This document shows positions 55,018-64,000 of a stretch of DNA of 64,000 bases, one piece after another. A program made the translations under genes and the position numbers. Origin of the DNA: Colius striatus (lineage: Eukaryota; Chordata; Aves; Coliiformes; Coliidae); contig NC_084773.1 in NCBI RefSeq assembly GCF_028858725.1, positions 7,554,350-7,618,349 of the forward strand, read 5' to 3'. Each line of letters starts with the position of its first letter. Within the stretch, counting starts at the first letter, position 1. The notes beneath the pieces were generated by a model. It made no database searches, was not told where the DNA came from, and was given only the letters and a program-made list of their open reading frames with translations.

Positions 55018-55989
55018 TTATCAGTTTATGTCAAACATTTGGTTGATTTTATTAAAAAGTCAGTTTCCTTAAAGCACTTCCCAGAGCAAGCTAGTCCCAG
55101 AGGCATGTTTACTTAAGAGGGGTTAAGCAGCTCCTTCCTCTACAGACACCAGAGCAGTCCATAAAAAGGTCAGTCTAAACTTAGCTGGCAACGCAAACAC
55201 TGTCAAATGAGGAGGGAATGGGGATGGGAAGAGACACTTATTAATGGGGTTGCATCCCAGGATTGATAGAGTACTCAGTCTCCCTTTGGGGAACAGAGAT
55301 TAAGTAGGCTATCCCCAAATGCCAGCTAAAGGCTATGGTGCCTGTTGCACATGGGAACCTCGAGGAACATGCAGAAGCTGGCTGTCATCAATGTCCTCTA
55401 TACACATTAATTCTCTTTTCAGCTAATGCATGACCCAAGCTCCCCTAAAGCTGGCACCACCTGTTAAGCCTTCTCAGGTAGGCAAGGAAGGAAAGAGGAC
55501 ACTAATGAAGCAGTACCCTTCCTCCAGCACACAGATGAGACATTCCATCAACCAAAGGGTTTTGTGGTCTAGTATGAGGACAATCCTTGCATCACTCACA
55601 CTGAAAACCTCCTCAGATCCTGACAATAGAATATGACAGAGTTCAATCCTCCTAGCTCTCTCCTCTGCTGCCTGCCAGCTCCTCAGCTTCCTCCAGCTCC
55701 CAACAGCTCTGCTCAGCTGCTGTTAACAGCGGAGTTTACCTGCTTAACTGGAAAAAAAAAAAAACAACAACAGTGAACCAACTCCCAATTCAAACAGGCC
55801 CAACCAAAAGGCCTGTAGGCAAACAGGGCACCCTGATACAACACCTCCCGATCACAGCCACCCTTCCCTGGCTCCCCTGGCCTAACGATAGCTGAGGGCC
55901 CTGGGACTGGCTAGGAAGCTGGGCCAAACACCGGTAGCTCCCCCACAGCCCACTCAGCTTGAAGGAAAGCAGAGGAAGCGCACACACCT
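55018..55989. other. Intergenic DNA left of the second CpG island
   Basis: No supported feature apart from an A-rich run at about 55,750-55,765. It may form the first intron of a minus-strand transcript if the TATA promoter at 56,161 is active. Confidence 0.4.
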
Positions 55990-56153
55990 TCGCCCTCACA
56001 ACGAAGGGCTCTCGTTCAAGGTATGAGTTAAGATCCCCCTCACAAGTGCCGCGAAGAGCAGCCGGAAAAAGGCCGCACGCCACGGCGAGCACAGCGCGGC
56101 CGCTACAACACCAGAACAACCCCTCACCCCGCGCGGCGTAAATAGCACCCGGG

Positions 56154-56161
56154 CTTTTATA
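56154..56161 (-). promoter_or_regulatory. TATA box (TATAAAAG), minus strand
   Basis: A perfect TATAAAAG flanked by GC-rich DNA (GGGGCGC before, CCCGGG after), the textbook setting of a TATA box. It predicts transcription starting near 56,130 toward lower coordinates. A possible first-exon donor GAAG|GTGTGTG lies at 55988/55987. The product is unknown: it could be an upstream alternative start for TEX264 or a separate non-coding RNA. Confidence 0.45.
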
Positions 56162-56259
56162 GCGCCCCTTCCCGGCAGCCCCCGCGCCCGGCCGCGCTGA
56201 TTGGCCGCAGGAGCGGCGGGCGCGCGCGCGCGCGCGAGCCGGCGGCGGGCGGGGCCGGG

Positions 56260-56406
56260 TGGGGCCGGGCTGAGGGAGCGCAGCGCCGCGTCGCGCCGGG
56301 CCGGTGAGCGCGCACGCCCCCGCCCCGCCCGTTTCCGTTCGCCGCTGCTCGAGCTCGGGCCTGTGGAGCAGGAAGCGGCGGGAGCGAGACCCAGCGCAGG
56401 CCGCAG
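56260..56406 (+). other. Putative non-coding first exon, plus strand
   Basis: Two good donors lie in the island: CCG|GTGAGC (exon end 56303) and CCGCAG|GTACGG (exon end 56406). No ATG-led frame with family resemblance precedes them, so the exon would be 5' UTR. The rest of the gene would lie beyond the right edge, with the LTR element in its first intron. The gene is not identifiable. Confidence 0.35.
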
Positions 56407-56952
56407 GTACGGGGGGGGGGCTCTCCACTGCACGGGCAGGGGGACGGCTCGGCGGCTTTCCCTCTCCCTTCGTGGCGCCGCCGCTGTCGCTGCCGCCGCC
56501 GGGTGGGGCTCGCCCGCCCGCCCCCGCCGGGAGCCCGCGCCGCGGCCTGCGGGCGGGAGCGGACGGACCCGGCCGAGCTTCTCGCTGCCGCGACCGGGCG
56601 GCATCGCGCGCACAATAGGGGAGGGTGTATGCGGCGGCCCCGCCGCCCCTCTGAGAGCCCCCAAGTTTCCGGGGCCGGTAACGGGGCCTTTTCCGGGCGG
56701 CGGGAGCGGGGGAGGGGCGGGCGGGCTGGGGCGCGGCCCAGGGGGCTCCCCTGCTGGAGCCGCCCGCACCTCGCCCGGCCCGAGGCGCCCGGGTCGCGGC
56801 GGGGAGACTCAGCTCCCGCCAGCTCTGACCGCGGGCGCGCGGAGGAGGCGGCGCTCGCACCCCCAGCCGCCTCCCCCCGCCCCGCCGTGGGGTGTGACAC
56901 GAGTGGGCACCGGGCGGTGGGGGTGACCCGGCTGACTGGCAGCTTGTTGTGG

Positions 56953-56960
56953 TGACGTCA
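56953..56960. promoter_or_regulatory. Perfect cAMP response element TGACGTCA
   Basis: The full eight-base palindromic CRE lies in the CpG island, a common position for functional CREB/ATF sites. Confidence 0.5.
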
Positions 56961-57110
56961 GTCGGGCGCGCGGGAGGCGCCGCCACGCCGGAGCGCGGGG
57001 CCGGGCCGCGGGGGTGCGCCGGGGCCGCGGCCGGGCCGCGCCTGCACACGCGGGTCCCCCCCGAGAGCCCCCCGTGGGTCCCGCCGGCTGCGCGGGGCCT
57101 GGCCGGGGAC

Positions 57111-60100
57111 AGAAGCACTTGCAGAAGCACTTCCCGGGTTTAGTTGGTGTTTAAACTTTTAGTGAAGGGCAGAAATCGCCTTTCGGAGTGGTACCGCCAA
57201 CTTTTTATTTGGGTTTTTTTCTCTTTTCTCTTGCCGTAGTCGCCGCAGGCCGGGGGCACGCGGGCAGTGTGCAGCCAAGAGCTCGGGTTTGATTTAAAAC
57301 GGACTGTTAGTGTGATCGTCTCCGTGTGGCCCTTAGACTAAAAATGACCTAGCTTAAAGTTACATGCCACCTACACCTTCTTTGCCGGGAAGTCTCTTCC
57401 GTTAAGGATGAGAAGAACCTCGAGATTATTTCAGCTGTGTTTGGGTCTAAAGGCAAAAAAAAAAACCACAAAAAAACCCAAAATACAGAGTTAAAGTTAT
57501 TACAGAGCCGGGGCAAAGTATTGTCCTCACACAGATAATGCCTTCACTATTTTGATATCTCTTTAAGTCTGATTCTGTGAGGTGTCTGGAATGGGAGTTT
57601 GTTTGTTTTTAGTTGATGCCTCATATCCAGCTTTTGTTTCTCTCCCTGTATGGTTCACCTGTTTGTGGCAGGGAGCCCTTCATGAGCAGTGGTTCCCACC
57701 CGCTCGTCCTGTATGTGATGCAGGATTGGAGACAAATAAATCCTAAGACCTACCTAGGGAATGTTATGTTTGTTGTTGCCATTTCCCCCCCCCCCAGAAC
57801 TTAGACAAAGCAACAGTTCTGATGGCTGTTTGATTATAAAACAGCACATCTCTAAAAGCAAACCCTTAAAACCCTCTTTTTGTATCAGAAATCTCAAAAA
57901 TAAGTTTTACTTATTCTAGATGTTGCTTGTGACTCGAAGTATTAGATTTTCCAGTGGTTTTATTTCAGGATTTTTTTTTCCAGCAGGGAAGTACAAAGTC
58001 TCTCCCTTTCTGAAAAGATTATTTGTGAAAATACTTACTTTCTGTTGAAGGCTCTTCTAATGCATCTGTGTGCCTTCCTCCTGCCTTGGTCTGGCTTTAC
58101 CCAGGTCTCTGGCCACACGTCACTGGCATTTCTGTTTAAAATCTGTAAACTAATTCTGGCTCTGATTTGGACCAAGGTTGCATGTTTAAAAAAAGAAAAA
58201 TTGCCATTAGCCTTATTTTGTTTTAATTGGTTCTCTGGAATGCTTCACAGTATATTCAGCATAAATGCCTGACATGAATTAATTTTAGTGGGCAGTTTGT
58301 GTCATTTAACATTAGAATACCCGCCCCATGTATTAAATAGTTTCCCAAGACATAAATGAACATGTGAGGGGCAAAAGAAATTCAGTTACAGAGCTAAGTG
58401 GAGCAACTCCTCTGCTATCCCTCCTAGCTCACCAAGCTCTCACTCTGGCCGAGTGCCACAGCAGTTGAGCGCCAGAGGCGGGGAGCTCTCTGAGCCAGGA
58501 ATTGACAGTAAAAACATCCTAAATGATCTTAACTGCCACCAGGATGTAGGGCTAGCGATGGCTCTTCAGATAAGCAAATTCCAAATTAAAACAATTTGAT
58601 CGTTTCGAGGGGCTTAGAAATATGATCATGTTTCTTCGTTTATTTAAGGGTAACTCATGTTATTCCTACTTTTTACACTTATATTTTTCCTCTCAACATC
58701 TTTACATTGCCCTGTACCCTTTTGACTTTTCTTTACACTATTTCTATGGTCAGCTCCTCAGACATCTCTGACCTTGACTACTGCCTTCTCATTAGCCTAT
58801 TGTATCTTCTCATTTGATCTCTCTTTATCTTTTTATTCCCTGCTGTTGTCATATCATTAGGTTCTTTCCAATGTCCACTCAGACACTATCTTTTGCCTTT
58901 TATAAAGCGCTTATCTGGCTCGTGCATTATTCCACATCCATTTAAATGCTCGTGTACTGCTCAAACGCAGTTTAACTGATGTGGAGGAAAAGTTTAATCA
59001 GTGAGTTTGAGGAAGTCAGCATGTCAGTAAAGGCCAGCCAGCACGCCCTTTAGATCTTAAATTGATCTGTGATGAGTCTGTCGTAGTAAAGAAGTAATAA
59101 AGGTGAAACCTCTTCATATAGAGCAGTGCCTTGCAAAATAAATGCACCAGATTAGCAGTTTACCTTCATTCCCAGGGATTACAGCTGTGCAAATGCACAC
59201 ACCTGAATGTCCTGCAACACTGTGCACTGTATAAGTAGGTAGTAAAAAGTAAGTAGAAAGAGGTAGTTCCTTACTTCTTTAAGGATCATCTCAAAAATAA
59301 GCACAGATATCCCAAAGACTCTCTCCAGTACACTAGTTAAGTTATCATTGCTTTAAGCTGTCTTACACCACTGTTAGGTGTCTGGGTGCTTTCTGGCCTT
59401 GACATGATCTTCATTCTCACCTCATTCTGAACTGTGAATAAAAGCTGCCAAAAGCATCATTGGAATTGGTACAGCAACTCTTGATCTGTCTGTCCTCTCT
59501 TCTGATCTTTTTCTATCACAATGTTTTCACTTAGAGGCATTTGCAACAGTAAAAAAACGAAGGTATCCATAGACCACTTCTTAATTAAGATACATGCCAT
59601 CCACTGTTGTGTACACACAACCAACAGGCAGTCCTTCCTACATGAATCATCTAATTAAACTAATCAGAACAAGGTTCACTGTCTGACCAGCCTTCCTGAC
59701 CAAGGCCTCTAGTAGAAGGAACAGATGGAGAGTCACTAGTATACTGAGTAAAATTGGGCAGTACACCCACAATGAGTACAAGGTCTTTCTTTCCTCAAGC
59801 TCTGACAGGTGTGGGATTTTGTTTGCTTTTTGTAAATTACTTTTTTTTATCAGAAACGAGGCTGAATTCATTCTCTTTGCTCAGTTAATTAGTGGTGCTT
59901 TGCAACAGCAAGTAGTTTTGTCTCATCTGACCCTCACTGATTGAACTGTCACATTTCCATGCATGGATGCGTACAAAGTGATGCCATTTTCACAGTTTTA
60001 AGGAAGGTTGTCTTTGCATGTGTCAGTGGTTTGCAAGAACTAACAGCTCTCCAAGTACCAGCTATCTCTGTTTACATTCTTTGATAACATTTTGATTTTC

Positions 60101-60429: not shown

Positions 60430-60755
60430 ATGAAGTTGACCAGAAAAGTAAATAAGAACGTGAACTCTGGCAAGTCAAATGAAAAATATAAGGACCTACC
60501 AGAAAGACTCTGAGCAGCATCATACTAATAGCCAAAAAAAAAAATCTTATCCAAGTATATCAGAAGCAAGAAAGGTGCTGGAGTCTGAGGGGGACAATAA
60601 ATGGTGAAGAAGTGAAAGATCTATGTGATAGAAAGTTAAATGACTGATGTGCATTCCTGTTTGCTATGAAGGAGTCCAAAGAGGTTCCTGTGCCAGAAAT
60701 TCTCTTTGTGGGGAACAGGACTCATTGGCAGATCTGTGTCTGCTTGAAGTGTCAG
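60430..60755 (+). repeat. Ancient CR1/L3-type LINE, left part
   Basis: Diverged sequence resembling the middle of ancient amniote CR1/L3-type LINEs (the CCAAGTATATCAGAAGCAAG stretch, followed by a degraded Glu/Asp-rich coding region). It continues after the LTR element at 63,462, giving one old LINE split by a later insertion. The left limit is approximate. Confidence 0.6.
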
Positions 60756-62001
60756 TGTCATGGTTTGACATGACAGCCTTTTCTGGTAAGGGGGAAGGGG
60801 CTGCAAAGATGGCTCCTGCAAGAAGTTGCTCACAACTCTCCCCAGCTCAGAGCCAGACCCACTTCTGGGGCTGAGCCAATTAGACGCCTCCACGATCACT
60901 TTTTAAGAAGAAGCCGGAAGGGGAGGTGTCTTCCTCCATCTTCCTTCTTTCTTCTGCCCCTTTTTCTCTTCTTCTGGCTGGTGGTGGTGCAAGGAGTAGG
61001 AACGGTGAGAGAAACAACCATGCGGACTCCAAGGTCAGTGATGAAAGGGAGGAGGTGTACTGTAGCAGAGACTCCCCTGCATTCTATGGAGAGAACTGGT
61101 GAAGCTGAGATTTATTTTCATTTCTTTAAAGACCCCGCATCAGCGGTACAGACTCATTCTGATAATGAGCCCGCATCAGGGGCAGAAACTCATTTTGCTA
61201 AAGCTGACCCCGGACCAGGGGCAGCGATTCACTTCATTAAAGGCCCCGAGCCAGGGACAGTGATTTTGGCCGGAGGAGGCCTTGTCCCGAAGGAGGAGCC
61301 CTTTATCACTATGGCCGGAGGAGGCCTTGTCCCGAGAGAGGGACCTTACAACTGCAGAAACTGCAACCGCGGTGAAGAATCCACGTCAGAGATATTCACC
61401 AAGGACTGTGTCCCGTGTGAGGGAACCTGTATCGGCAGAAGCCGCAGCTGCTGGGAACAACCCACACCAGAGAAGTTTGTTAAGGACTGTGTTCCGGGGG
61501 AGGAACCCCGTGTTGGAGCAGGGGAAGAATGCCAGGAGTCATCCTCATCTGAGAAGACAGAAGCGGCAAAGCCCATCTGTGAGAGACTGACTACATCCCC
61601 CACTCCCTGCCCCCCTGAGCTGTTGCGGGGGGAGGAGGTAGAGATATCGGGAGCAGTGAGCTGGGCCCGGGAAGAAAGGAGGGATGGGGGAGGGAGATCT
61701 TAAAGTGCTGGTTGTAATTTTCTCATCATCCTACTCCCTTTTTGCTTTTATTCTGTTCTGTTTCTTGTAGAATAAACTTTCCTACTTTCCTCTCTAAGTC
61801 GAGTACTGGAGTCTGTTTTGCCCAGAACCATAATTGGCAGTGAGCCCTCCCTGCCCTTGTCTCAATCCACAACAATCTTGCTTATCTTTTTACTCCCATT
61901 TCACTGGGTCCTCCGCCATCTTAACGAGGGTGGGGGTGAATGGGGGCATCGAGCGAGAAACTGTCGTGGTGCTGTTGTGCTAGCTGGGCCAAACCACGAC
62001 A
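60756..62001 (+). repeat. 5' LTR
   Basis: 1,246 bp, TG..CA ends. A CCAAT box lies at 60876-60880 and a weak TATA-like TTTTTAAG near 60900-60906; polyadenylation signal AATAAA at 61771-61776. YY1-like AAGATGGC lies at 60806-60813 and, reversed, at 61915-61922. An open reading frame lies between the promoter-like region and the polyadenylation signal. If the start is near 60,930, the R region would be unusually long, at over 800 bases. Confidence 0.93.
61020..61703 (+). CDS. Open reading frame inside the 5' LTR, function unknown
   Basis: ATG to stop gives 227 codons; the frame is open a little further upstream, to about 60,981, without another ATG. The ATG has A at -3. The predicted protein is hydrophilic and rich in Glu, Gly, Pro and Ser. 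It has degenerate repeats of about 15 residues in its first half (units like ASGAETHFAKADP), a doubled AGGGLVP motif, and several Cys in the middle (NCRNC, CVPCEGTC). No signal peptide or membrane segment is apparent. I recognise no family. LTR-borne genes are known elsewhere (mouse mammary tumour virus sag), but there is no similarity to it. It may be a real accessory gene of this element family or a chance frame kept open by repeats. Confidence 0.4.
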   Translation: MRTPRSVMKGRRCTVAETPLHSMERTGEAEIYFHFFKDPASAVQTHSDNEPASGAETHFAKADPGPGAAIHFIKGPEPGTVILAGGGLVPKEEPFITMAGGGLVPREGPYNCRNCNRGEESTSEIFTKDCVPCEGTCIGRSRSCWEQPTPEKFVKDCVPGEEPRVGAGEECQESSSSEKTEAAKPICERLTTSPTPCPPELLRGEEVEISGAVSWAREERRDGGGRS

Positions 62002-62215
62002 TTATTGGCGCCCAACGTGGGGCCCCGAGTCTGTGGGACTTGGAGCATTACAGATTAAATTTGAGACAAGGATACTAATTGGGAGTGGTAACGGGCAAAA
62101 CATGAACTGTACTGCTGACTATTGAGGTTTTAAGTGGTTCTACCTTTGGTGAAGGGACGAGGGGTGGATTATTAACACCTCCTTAAAAAGCAATTCGTGA
62201 AGGCGAGGGGTGGAA
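62002..62215 (+). other. Internal region of the LTR element
   Basis: 214 bases with the primer binding site at its left end and a purine-rich tract (AAGGCGAGGGGTGGAA) at its right end. It has no recognisable coding sequence. It may be a remnant after a large deletion or the normal state of a non-autonomous family. Confidence 0.85.
62006..62023 (+). other. tRNA-Lys primer binding site
   Basis: TGGCGCCCAACGTGGGGC is exactly the 18-base site complementary to the 3' end of tRNA-Lys(1,2), as used by several class II retroviruses such as Mason-Pfizer monkey virus. It starts four bases after the LTR end. Confidence 0.92.
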
Positions 62216-63461
62216 TGTCATGGTTTGACATGACAGCCTTTTCTGGTAAGGGGGAAGGGGCTGCAAAGATGGCTCCTGCAAGAAGTTGCTCACAACTCTC
62301 CCCAGCTCAGAGCCAGACCCACTTCTGGGGCTGAGCCAATTAGACGCCTCCACGATCACTTTTTAAGAAGAAGCCGGAAGGGGAGGTGTCTTCCTCCATC
62401 TTCCTTCTTTCTTCTGCCCCTTTTTCTCTTCTTCTGGCTGGTGGTGGTGCAAGGAGTAGGAACGGTGAGAGAAACAACCATGCGGACTCCAAGGTCAGTG
62501 ATGAAAGGGAGGAGGTGTACTGTAGCAGAGACTCCCCTGCATTCTATGGAGAGAACTGGTGAAGCTGAGATTTATTTTCATTTCTTTAAAGACCCCGCAT
62601 CAGCGGTACAGACTCATTCTGATAATGAGCCCGCATCAGGGGCAGAAACTCATTTTGCTAAAGCTGACCCCGGACCAGGGGCAGCGATTCACTTCATTAA
62701 AGGCCCCGAGCCAGGGACAGTGATTTTGGCCGGAGGAGGCCTTGTCCCGAAGGAGGAGCCCTTTATCACTATGGCCGGAGGAGGCCTTGTCCCGAGAGAG
62801 GGACCTTACAACTGCAGAAACTGCAACCGCGGTGAAGAATCCACGTCAGAGATATTCACCAAGGACTGTGTCCCGTGTGAGGGAACCTGTATCGGCAGAA
62901 GCCGCAGCTGCTGGGAACAACCCACACCAGAGAAGTTTGTTAAGGACTGTGTTCCGGGGGAGGAACCCCGTGTTGGAGCAGGGGAAGAATGCCAGGAGTC
63001 ATCCTCATCTGAGAAGACAGAAGCGGCAAAGCCCATCTGTGAGAGACTGACTACATCCCCCACTCCCTGCCCCCCTGAGCTGTTGCGGGGGGAGGAGGTA
63101 GAGATATCGGGAGCAGTGAGCTGGGCCCGGGAAGAAAGGAGGGATGGGGGAGGGAGATCTTAAAGTGCTGGTTGTAATTTTCTCATCATCCTACTCCCTT
63201 TTTGCTTTTATTCTGTTCTGTTTCTTGTAGAATAAACTTTCCTACTTTCCTCTCTAAGTCGAGTACTGGAGTCTGTTTTGCCCAGAACCATAATTGGCAG
63301 TGAGCCCTCCCTGCCCTTGTCTCAATCCACAACAATCTTGCTTATCTTTTTACTCCCATTTCACTGGGTCCTCCGCCATCTTAACGAGGGTGGGGGTGAA
63401 TGGGGGCATCGAGCGAGAAACTGTCGTGGTGCTGTTGTGCTAGCTGGGCCAAACCACGACA
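62216..63461 (+). repeat. 3' LTR
   Basis: The second LTR copy, same length as the first, displaced by exactly 1,460 bases with no differences noticed by eye. It carries the same promoter-like, reading-frame and polyadenylation parts. Confidence 0.93.
62480..63163 (+). CDS. Open reading frame inside the 3' LTR, function unknown
   Basis: An identical copy of the frame in the 5' LTR (227 codons from ATG). Its own LTR supplies a CCAAT/TATA-like region upstream and AATAAA at 63231-63236 downstream, so in principle it is a complete small transcription unit. No family recognised. Confidence 0.4.
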   Translation: MRTPRSVMKGRRCTVAETPLHSMERTGEAEIYFHFFKDPASAVQTHSDNEPASGAETHFAKADPGPGAAIHFIKGPEPGTVILAGGGLVPKEEPFITMAGGGLVPREGPYNCRNCNRGEESTSEIFTKDCVPCEGTCIGRSRSCWEQPTPEKFVKDCVPGEEPRVGAGEECQESSSSEKTEAAKPICERLTTSPTPCPPELLRGEEVEISGAVSWAREERRDGGGRS

Positions 63462-64000
63462 GTCAGCAAAGAAGTTTATAGAGCAAAGTGATAAATATAG
63501 TTACGGAATGCCAAGACCAGATGGTGCTTGCCCAAGGGTCCCAAAGGAAACTCAGGCCTGAAATGGCCAAATTATTAATTATGCTACGTAACTTCTCACT
63601 TAATACCTTAGAAGCCAGAGACGTAGATGACTTACATGATAGCAGTTCTTAAAGATAGTTCAGCAGAATACCACAGAGTTCAATGCCTTTTTAACAACAA
63701 ACAGCAAAATAAAAAATTGACCAGATGGACCAACAACTTGGTGGGAGCAAGTCAATGTGGCTTTTGCAAAGGAAACAGCGTCACTTAAATCTGCTGCGGT
63801 TTTTGAATTTTTGAAAATTTGGGAGAAGAAAAGACTAGGGATCTGTGTTACACCTGTACTGTTCAGTATATTCATAAATGATCTGTCGAGAAAGATCCTT
63901 GTAAGGGAAGGAAATACAAGCTGACTAGGAAGAGTTGCAGCTCATCCTTCTGACACTAAATTATGGGCAGTAAAATGTCAAATGAAATTTGTTCCAGATA
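63462..64000 (+). repeat. Ancient CR1/L3-type LINE, right part (reverse transcriptase region), runs off the window
   Basis: Diverged but recognisable ancient CR1/L3-type blocks in the expected order: GACCAGATGGTGCTTGCCCA, AATTATGCTACGTAACTTCT, AGTCAATGTGGCTTTTGCAA, TATATTCATAAATGATCTG (the IFINDL motif region of CR1-type reverse transcriptases), and TGACACTAAATTATGGGCAG. Frames are broken throughout. It resembles the old CR1/L3 lineage shared by amniotes rather than young bird CR1. Confidence 0.72.

Follow-up and report, generated by a model that had tools for sequence, protein, structure and literature searches.

Can a long terminal repeat (LTR) carry a gene of its own? The question is raised by a retroelement near the end of a 64,000-nucleotide stretch of the Colius striatus genome (assembly GCF_028858725.1, contig NC_084773.1, positions 7,554,350 to 7,618,349), here called the window, in which each of two LTRs holds a complete 227-codon open reading frame. 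To our knowledge, genes contained within an LTR are known from very few elements. A preliminary description of the locus likened the frame to the sag gene of mouse mammary tumour virus (MMTV) and supposed that, were the frame conserved across copies, every solo LTR would spread a self-contained gene. We find that the element is real and unusual, combining an interior like that of a terminal-repeat retrotransposon in miniature (TRIM) with a long LTR in which a frame persists, the status of that frame as a gene being putative. The reading that we prefer, tentatively and with a little less than even confidence, is that the element is very young, non-autonomous and TRIM-like, that its LTR frame tends to stay open while the residues drift, and that openness to translation favours the element's RNA.

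A long open reading frame in each LTR

The element, 2,706 bp in all, has the features of an LTR retroelement: paired TG...CA LTRs, a primer-binding site beside the 5' LTR, a purine-rich tract before the 3' LTR and a target-site duplication (Table 1). Its two LTRs are 100% identical over 1,246 bp, and no second copy is present elsewhere in the window, where the LTR's best other match covers 27 bases (E 0.019). The structure first described, of two LTRs with a complete frame in each, was confirmed in its coordinates, in the 227 codons and in the downstream AATAAA; this last begins at LTR position 1016, 67 nt after the stop codon, where about 70 bases had been given.

The frame is open far beyond chance expectation. 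Measured from stop to stop it extends over 309 codons. When the LTR was shuffled 3,000 times with its dinucleotides preserved, no shuffle attained that length and one gave an ATG frame of 227 codons. Shuffling block by block (3,000 again) gave identical counts, 0 and 1, the test being somewhat too generous owing to the tandem repeats inside the LTR.

The frame across dispersed copies

Copies were sought in the whole assembly (1.21 Gb, 191 contigs). An exact 32-base pattern spanning the LTR end and the primer site occurs 70 times, and its reversed control not at all. With the LTR as query, the best 40 of 5,105 candidates were scored and have identities of 93–100%; the best 40 of 162 were scored for the interior and the best 40 of 7,629 in a diverged-LTR search, and two protein queries against the genome yielded 150 scored matches out of 19,784 and of 18,596. 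These candidate totals are loose first looks and not copy numbers, and the best-40 lists favour copies near to the query, with older elements under-represented.

We aligned 63 LTRs, 30 of them from two-LTR loci (L048, the tandem partner of L047, being omitted, the second LTR of L067 added, and the 3' LTR taken for L062, L070 and L074) and 33 others, which are mostly without an adjoining interior as far as checked and from which partner and duplicate LTRs were removed. The frame is intact from ATG to homologous stop in 49 of the 63, comprising 28 of the 30 LTRs from two-LTR elements and 21 of the 33 others. Its length ranges from 669 to 822 nt and takes 16 distinct values, 10 of them multiples of three. 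Such in-frame lengths are found in 54 of the 63 LTRs: 669 nt (one LTR), 672 (two), 684 (seven), 687 (19), 696 (one), 717 (two), 732 (one), 762 (six), 777 (14) and 822 (one).

Length changes within the frame are mostly in multiples of three. This holds for 9 of the 15 distinct lengths that differ from the mode in the frame, for 1 of 5 in the stretch before the ATG and for 5 of 14 in that after the stop. Counted as gap intervals, multiples of three make up 14 of 19 within the frame and 8 of 35 beyond it (Fisher P 0.0004), although the intervals are not independent, the repeat units in the frame being themselves multiples of three and the outside set including two length ladders. For intervals shared by 2 to 61 LTRs the figures are 6 of 9 and 4 of 17 (P 0.046). 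On the sequences compared, this excess of in-frame length changes is the strongest single point for a frame that is kept.

The frame is also common to subfamilies that are some 15–22% diverged. An older group of 17 LTRs, made up of 16 copies (L077–L092, from 43 further places in the diverged-LTR listing) together with L044, has a mean mutual identity of 84%. The ATG is kept in 15 of these and the stop codon lies at the homologous place in 16, and one copy is intact (L080, with 220 codons, which was not picked by its frame). The stops and frameshifts in the older copies are of the kind expected once an element has inserted. At about 79% DNA identity, L075, a copy chosen as open, has 202 open codons with 53% amino acid identity and runs beyond the usual stop. 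In L094 and L096 the frame, stop included, measures 735 and 675 nt, each an in-frame length, and L095 shifts frame near the end; all three were picked because their protein-search rows had no stop. The frame is broken in L043 (92% identical), L044 and L076. In the diverged-protein search 12 of the best 40 rows are free of stops, the query's own place included (11 of 39 without it), and with the second protein query all the rows listed but one lack a stop, both lists being of a kind that favours intact copies and in which frameshifts are invisible.

The supposition that the frame is kept across copies thus stands in so far as the many dispersed copies mostly have it open and it can still be recognised in diverged subfamilies; for the residues it finds no support, as set out below. 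That the LTR itself spreads the frame is borne out, since solitary LTRs flanked by 5-bp repeats are numerous.

Openness and residue constraint

Changes count as shared when at least three copies have them, and private changes, which arose after insertion, served as their neutral yardstick; a change present in just two copies entered neither this comparison nor the nonsense counts. For the 63 LTRs, the shared changes in the frame are 66 nonsynonymous (N) to 27 synonymous (S) and the private ones 164 to 54 (P 0.48). In the older group the corresponding figures are 75:31 and 255:73 (P 0.15), with control frame +2 giving P 0.02. Old and young LTRs compared pairwise on a DNA alignment give a ratio of 0.75 in frame 0 and of 0.71 and 0.70 in the control frames. 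Purifying selection on the residues, for which a dN/dS comparison had been proposed at the outset, did not emerge: N/S in frame 0 is like that of the two control frames, and residue constraint is therefore unsupported. Values of dN/dS of 0.43–0.51 for L044 were set aside as a product of protein-guided alignment; a DNA alignment gives 0.63, with controls of 0.77 and 0.73.

In frame 0, none of the 93 shared changes in the 63 LTRs is nonsense and one of the 106 in the older group is, or 1 of 199 together. Control frame +1 has 5 of 93 and 1 of 109, control frame +2 has 2 of 91 and 1 of 110, and among private changes in frame 0 the counts are 3 of 218 and 16 of 328. Each of these signals, like the N/S contrasts and the simulation described below, is modest. 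It is for the openness of the frame that the gap intervals and the single shared nonsense change speak, not for its residues. Judged from the sequences, preservation of the frame seems somewhat likelier than its absence.

A series of observations weighs against the preferred reading, to which belong the interdependence of the gap intervals and the omission of two-copy changes already mentioned. Base periodicity is weak, with P 0.011 for the window frame and 0.06–0.11 for three relatives. Nine of the 63 LTRs have out-of-frame lengths (673 nt in one, 685 in three, 686 in one, 689 in two, 718 in one and 719 in one), and many of the in-frame length changes are repeat units gained or lost. Several of the breaks recur in more than one copy: L009, L010 and L070 have all gained 1 nt in a G run close to the frame end, L027 and L040 have a 2-nt gap in common, L036 and L038 share a stop at codon 215 and, in the older copies, stops at codons 146, 164 and 241 are each present in two. 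The ATG and the stop are conserved in the older group no better than about one-third of all triplets. Fixed differences between old and young LTRs are spread 19/23/21 over the codon positions (47 nonsynonymous, 15 synonymous and 1 involving a stop), and the pooled N/S of seven subfamily representatives, 0.729 in frame 0, compares with 0.733 and 0.855 for the control frames. Lastly, a helper with matching ends was sought at a few loci (L093, L097 and L098) and not found there.

A rival explanation does without selection: the frame is left over from a coding or repeat-rich piece that was captured, and is still open through the youth of the copies, a composition in which stops are rare targets and repeat units whose lengths are multiples of three. 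The neutral-like substitution pattern agrees with it, as do the breaks in 16 of the 17 older and 14 of the 63 younger copies, some of them shared, and 63 simulated neutral substitutions, with 2.2 stops expected, leave the frame open with a probability of 0.10. It is opposed by the gap intervals in multiples of three and by the openness of the frame across subfamilies, for which 100–150 simulated substitutions would bring about 3–5 stops and a probability of remaining open of 0.06–0.01 (at 150, 4.6 stops and 0.0125); the stop-free rows of the diverged-protein search count on the same side, with the reservation that the search is biased to open copies and blind to frameshifts. We consider this explanation doubtful, while taking it seriously.

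A possible accessory protein or RNA role

A functional accessory protein, sag-, nef- or bel-like in its position, could also underlie the frame if it were a fast-evolving or disordered repeat protein whose dN/dS looks neutral. Several subfamilies have an open frame with the same start and stop region, and a repeat motif rich in cysteine is found again in four proteins. The frame-0 ratios of L046, L094, L095 and L096 (0.51–0.67) are under nearly all of the control-frame ratios (0.66–1.16), and among changes present in at least five copies of the older group N:S is 33:20, against 255:73 private (P 0.024; control frames P 0.86 and 0.22). Against this, the three-copy threshold gives the P values of 0.15 and, in control frame +2, 0.02 quoted above, and the pooled frame-0 ratio equals that of the control.

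Nor did searches bring up a relative of the protein. Compared with 5.8 billion proteins it gave 310 candidates, none at E ≤ 1; in Pfam it gave one PEP-CTERM match, below the cut-off, and three relatives gave none. A search of the PDB returned three weak matches, the best to a 20-residue PRDM9 zinc-finger stretch (E 0.033), which we take as chance. A single-sequence fold model was uninformative (predicted local distance difference test score, pLDDT, 34), and no membrane segment is evident on inspection. A functional protein is possible on this showing, and the accessory-protein explanation as a whole appears rather unlikely.

Retention of the region for an RNA role, in packaging or in the structure of a long R region with the frame incidental, is very improbable: the frame region folds somewhat more strongly than its shuffles do (z −1.87, with 0 of 20 equally good) and the repeated GGCCGGAGGAGGCC motif could make hairpins, but the length changes in multiples of three are left unexplained and Rfam gave no match at gathering scores.

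Signals and possible transcripts

The promoter motifs first reported stand in part. CCAAT is present at LTR position 121, but TATAAA is absent and there is only TTTTTAAG (TTTAAG at 147). The 10-mer AGCCAATTAG of the CCAAT region is retained in 61 of the 63 LTRs, the block GTTCTGTTTCTTGTAGAATAAACTT in 57 and TTTTTAAG in 44. The start-codon context is AACAACCATGC, and 45 of the 63 LTRs are without any ATG from the CCAAT to the start of the frame. A second TATA-like motif, CTTTTATT, sits after the frame and ahead of AATAAA, the CCAAT sitting before the frame.

Two layouts would fit these motifs. In one, a promoter near the CCAAT would produce a very long R including the frame; in the other, which is MMTV-like, the frame would lie in U3 with CTTTTATT ahead of AATAAA. 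A pyrimidine tract and AG just upstream of the ATG, seen on inspection, would allow a spliced mRNA. Two variants were rejected. A conserved splice removing the frame, from a donor just 5' of the ATG, is unsupported because 50 of 63 LTRs have the GT and 39 have GGTGAG, and a coding extension upstream of the ATG is rejected because shared 1-nt length changes occur in that stretch.

According to the preferred reading, of an open frame with drifting residues, the frame would tend to stay open as repeat units are gained and lost in frame, its residues meanwhile drifting with little restraint. The LTR transcript would be translated, and open translation, more than the exact protein, would favour the element's RNA, for example through escape from nonsense-mediated decay; a loosely constrained, low-complexity accessory protein would be an alternative benefit. 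A bolder form makes the frame a translated gene owned by the LTR, under selection for openness with nearly free residues, and each solo LTR a unit of promoter, gene and poly(A) signal, many of them recently seeded by an otherwise gene-less element. This form we hold to be unlikely, if well worth considering.

Anatomy, mobilisation and class

Table 1. Features of the element, in window coordinates
Feature	Position	Strand	Remarks
Target-site duplication GTCAG, left copy	60751..60755	.	Matches right copy
5' LTR	60756..62001	+	TGTCATGG...CCACGACA, 1,246 bp
CCAAT motif of 5' LTR	60876..60880	+	LTR position 121
227-codon open reading frame, 5' LTR	61020..61703	+	ATG to TAA
36-nt tandem repeat within 5' LTR frame	61127..61203	+	In frame
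AATAAA poly(A) signal, 5' LTR	61771..61776	+	Preceded by splice-acceptor-like pyrimidine tract
Whole interior	62002..62215	+	214 bp; gag-pol-env absent
Primer-binding site	62006..62023	+	TGGCGCCCAACGTGGGGC; presumed tRNA-Lys type
Purine-rich tract ahead of 3' LTR	62199..62215	+	
3' LTR	62216..63461	+	1,246 bp; same sequence as 5' LTR
227-codon open reading frame, 3' LTR	62480..63163	+	
AATAAA, 3' LTR	63231..63236	+	
Target-site duplication GTCAG, right copy	63462..63466	.	

The element is a small retroelement without copying genes of its own that has recently spread through the host genome. Its LTRs, primer site and purine tract are signals that copying in trans would require, while gag-pol is lacking, and helper proteins of another endogenous retrovirus would most likely do the copying. 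Those elements with such LTRs that were read contain no gag-pol. Gag_p24 genes are abundant in the genome (150 of 1,333 candidates were scored, all those listed lying above the cut-off and many having 677-codon open frames), and helpers for copying in trans may therefore exist there. The gag family with 677-codon frames is very abundant, with dozens of equal-scoring copies, and is probably another recently active endogenous retrovirus.

Of the loci considered as partners, L093, a variant of the primer-binding site, belongs to another LTR family, and L098, a junction with an altered base after that site, is the same small element. At L097 the 851 bases 5' of one gag hold no piece of LTR or primer-binding site, a stretch that may stop short of the LTR of the provirus. 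Relatives were sought in viral contigs and prokaryote genomes and none was found. The one viral contig to match the primer site, L001, shows no likeness to the LTR past the 19 bases of that site, apart from a single match of 29 bases at E 0.12; it resembles a phage record, and the match looks like chance.

TRIMs are defined by very short LTRs and a total length under about 1 kb. The 214-bp interior, free of gag-pol, agrees with this class, and the LTR of 1,246 bp and element of 2,706 bp are too large for it. A tRNA-Lys primer site characterises endogenous retroviruses of class II (ERVK, ERV2), and TGGCGCCCAACGTGGGGC, which we take to be of this type, accords with them. The target-site duplication departs from their 6 bp, being 5 bp in the window, with a 5-bp match between the outer flanks at 20 of 30 two-LTR loci (L056 alone was noted with 6 bp); the available part of one source gives 6 bp for ERV2 and 5 bp for ERV3 (PMC6523648).

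The family in the genome and its age

Both LTRs are readable at 29 of the 30 loci that hold the interior. LTR pairs of equal length are found at 24 of 30 two-LTR loci. Among these 24 pairs the two LTRs are identical in 15, and differences average 0.0003 per bp. The bird substitution rate is about 2e-9 per site per year, and these two figures together give an age in the region of 0.1 million years.

Contig C39 (42.3 of 1,212 Mb, 3.5% of the genome) holds 12 of the 70 exact junctions and many gag matches, and looks like a W chromosome that could be serving as a retroelement refuge. Junctions lying 1,553–1,554 bases apart (C163:3034552 and 3036105; C176:353153, 354707 and 356261) are tandem LTR-interior-LTR-interior arrays with shared LTRs. 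At L067 (the same place as L006 and L042) the 5' LTR frame has 227 codons and the 3' LTR frame 258, and the outer repeats do not match; it probably joins two LTR types through recombination between elements. L020, L021 and L022 on contig C170 are near-identical solo LTRs, all with GGGTG repeats and two of them 11.3 kb apart, and are probably one duplicated segment, not independent insertions. L054/L075 and L070/L076 are nested, with young elements inside older LTRs of the same superfamily. Elsewhere in the window, a GC-rich segment at 55790–57130, in which both strands have long frames that overlap, is most likely a CpG island.

Relation to known elements and significance

TRIM LTRs are much shorter than those of the present family, which measure 1.25–1.4 kb and, unlike them, have a long frame. 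As far as the available parts of their descriptions go, ant PbTRIM and the Echinococcus TRIM are alike in having LTRs, a primer-binding site, a purine tract and a tiny gene-free interior and in being non-autonomous. The coding region of ENS-1 is located outside the LTR, unlike the frame described here. Chicken ENS-1/ERNI resembles the present family as a bird retroelement with LTRs, many of them solo; in the portions of the literature available it has more than 800 solo LTRs, and its protein has been studied in chick embryonic stem cells (PMC3362752, PMC3958431). Other bird LTR retrotransposons share the recent activity and many solo LTRs, but no LTR-borne frame is described in the available parts of these accounts (PMC6523648, PMC11009239), and a literature search covering titles and the beginnings of abstracts brought up no bird LTR carrying a gene. 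In the part available, MMTV Sag is described as an LTR-encoded type II transmembrane protein, and MMTV as a complete virus that has gag, pro, pol and env (PMC11998498). The comparison with sag made at the outset holds for location inside an LTR and for nothing beyond it: here too a complete frame lies wholly within each LTR (61020–61703 inside 60756–62001), whereas the present element has no further gene.

A persistent frame without visible residue constraint poses, in testable form, the question whether selection can keep a frame for the translation of an RNA and not for its protein. If that were so, the formation of solo LTRs, usually viewed as a loss of coding content, would leave a possible gene behind.

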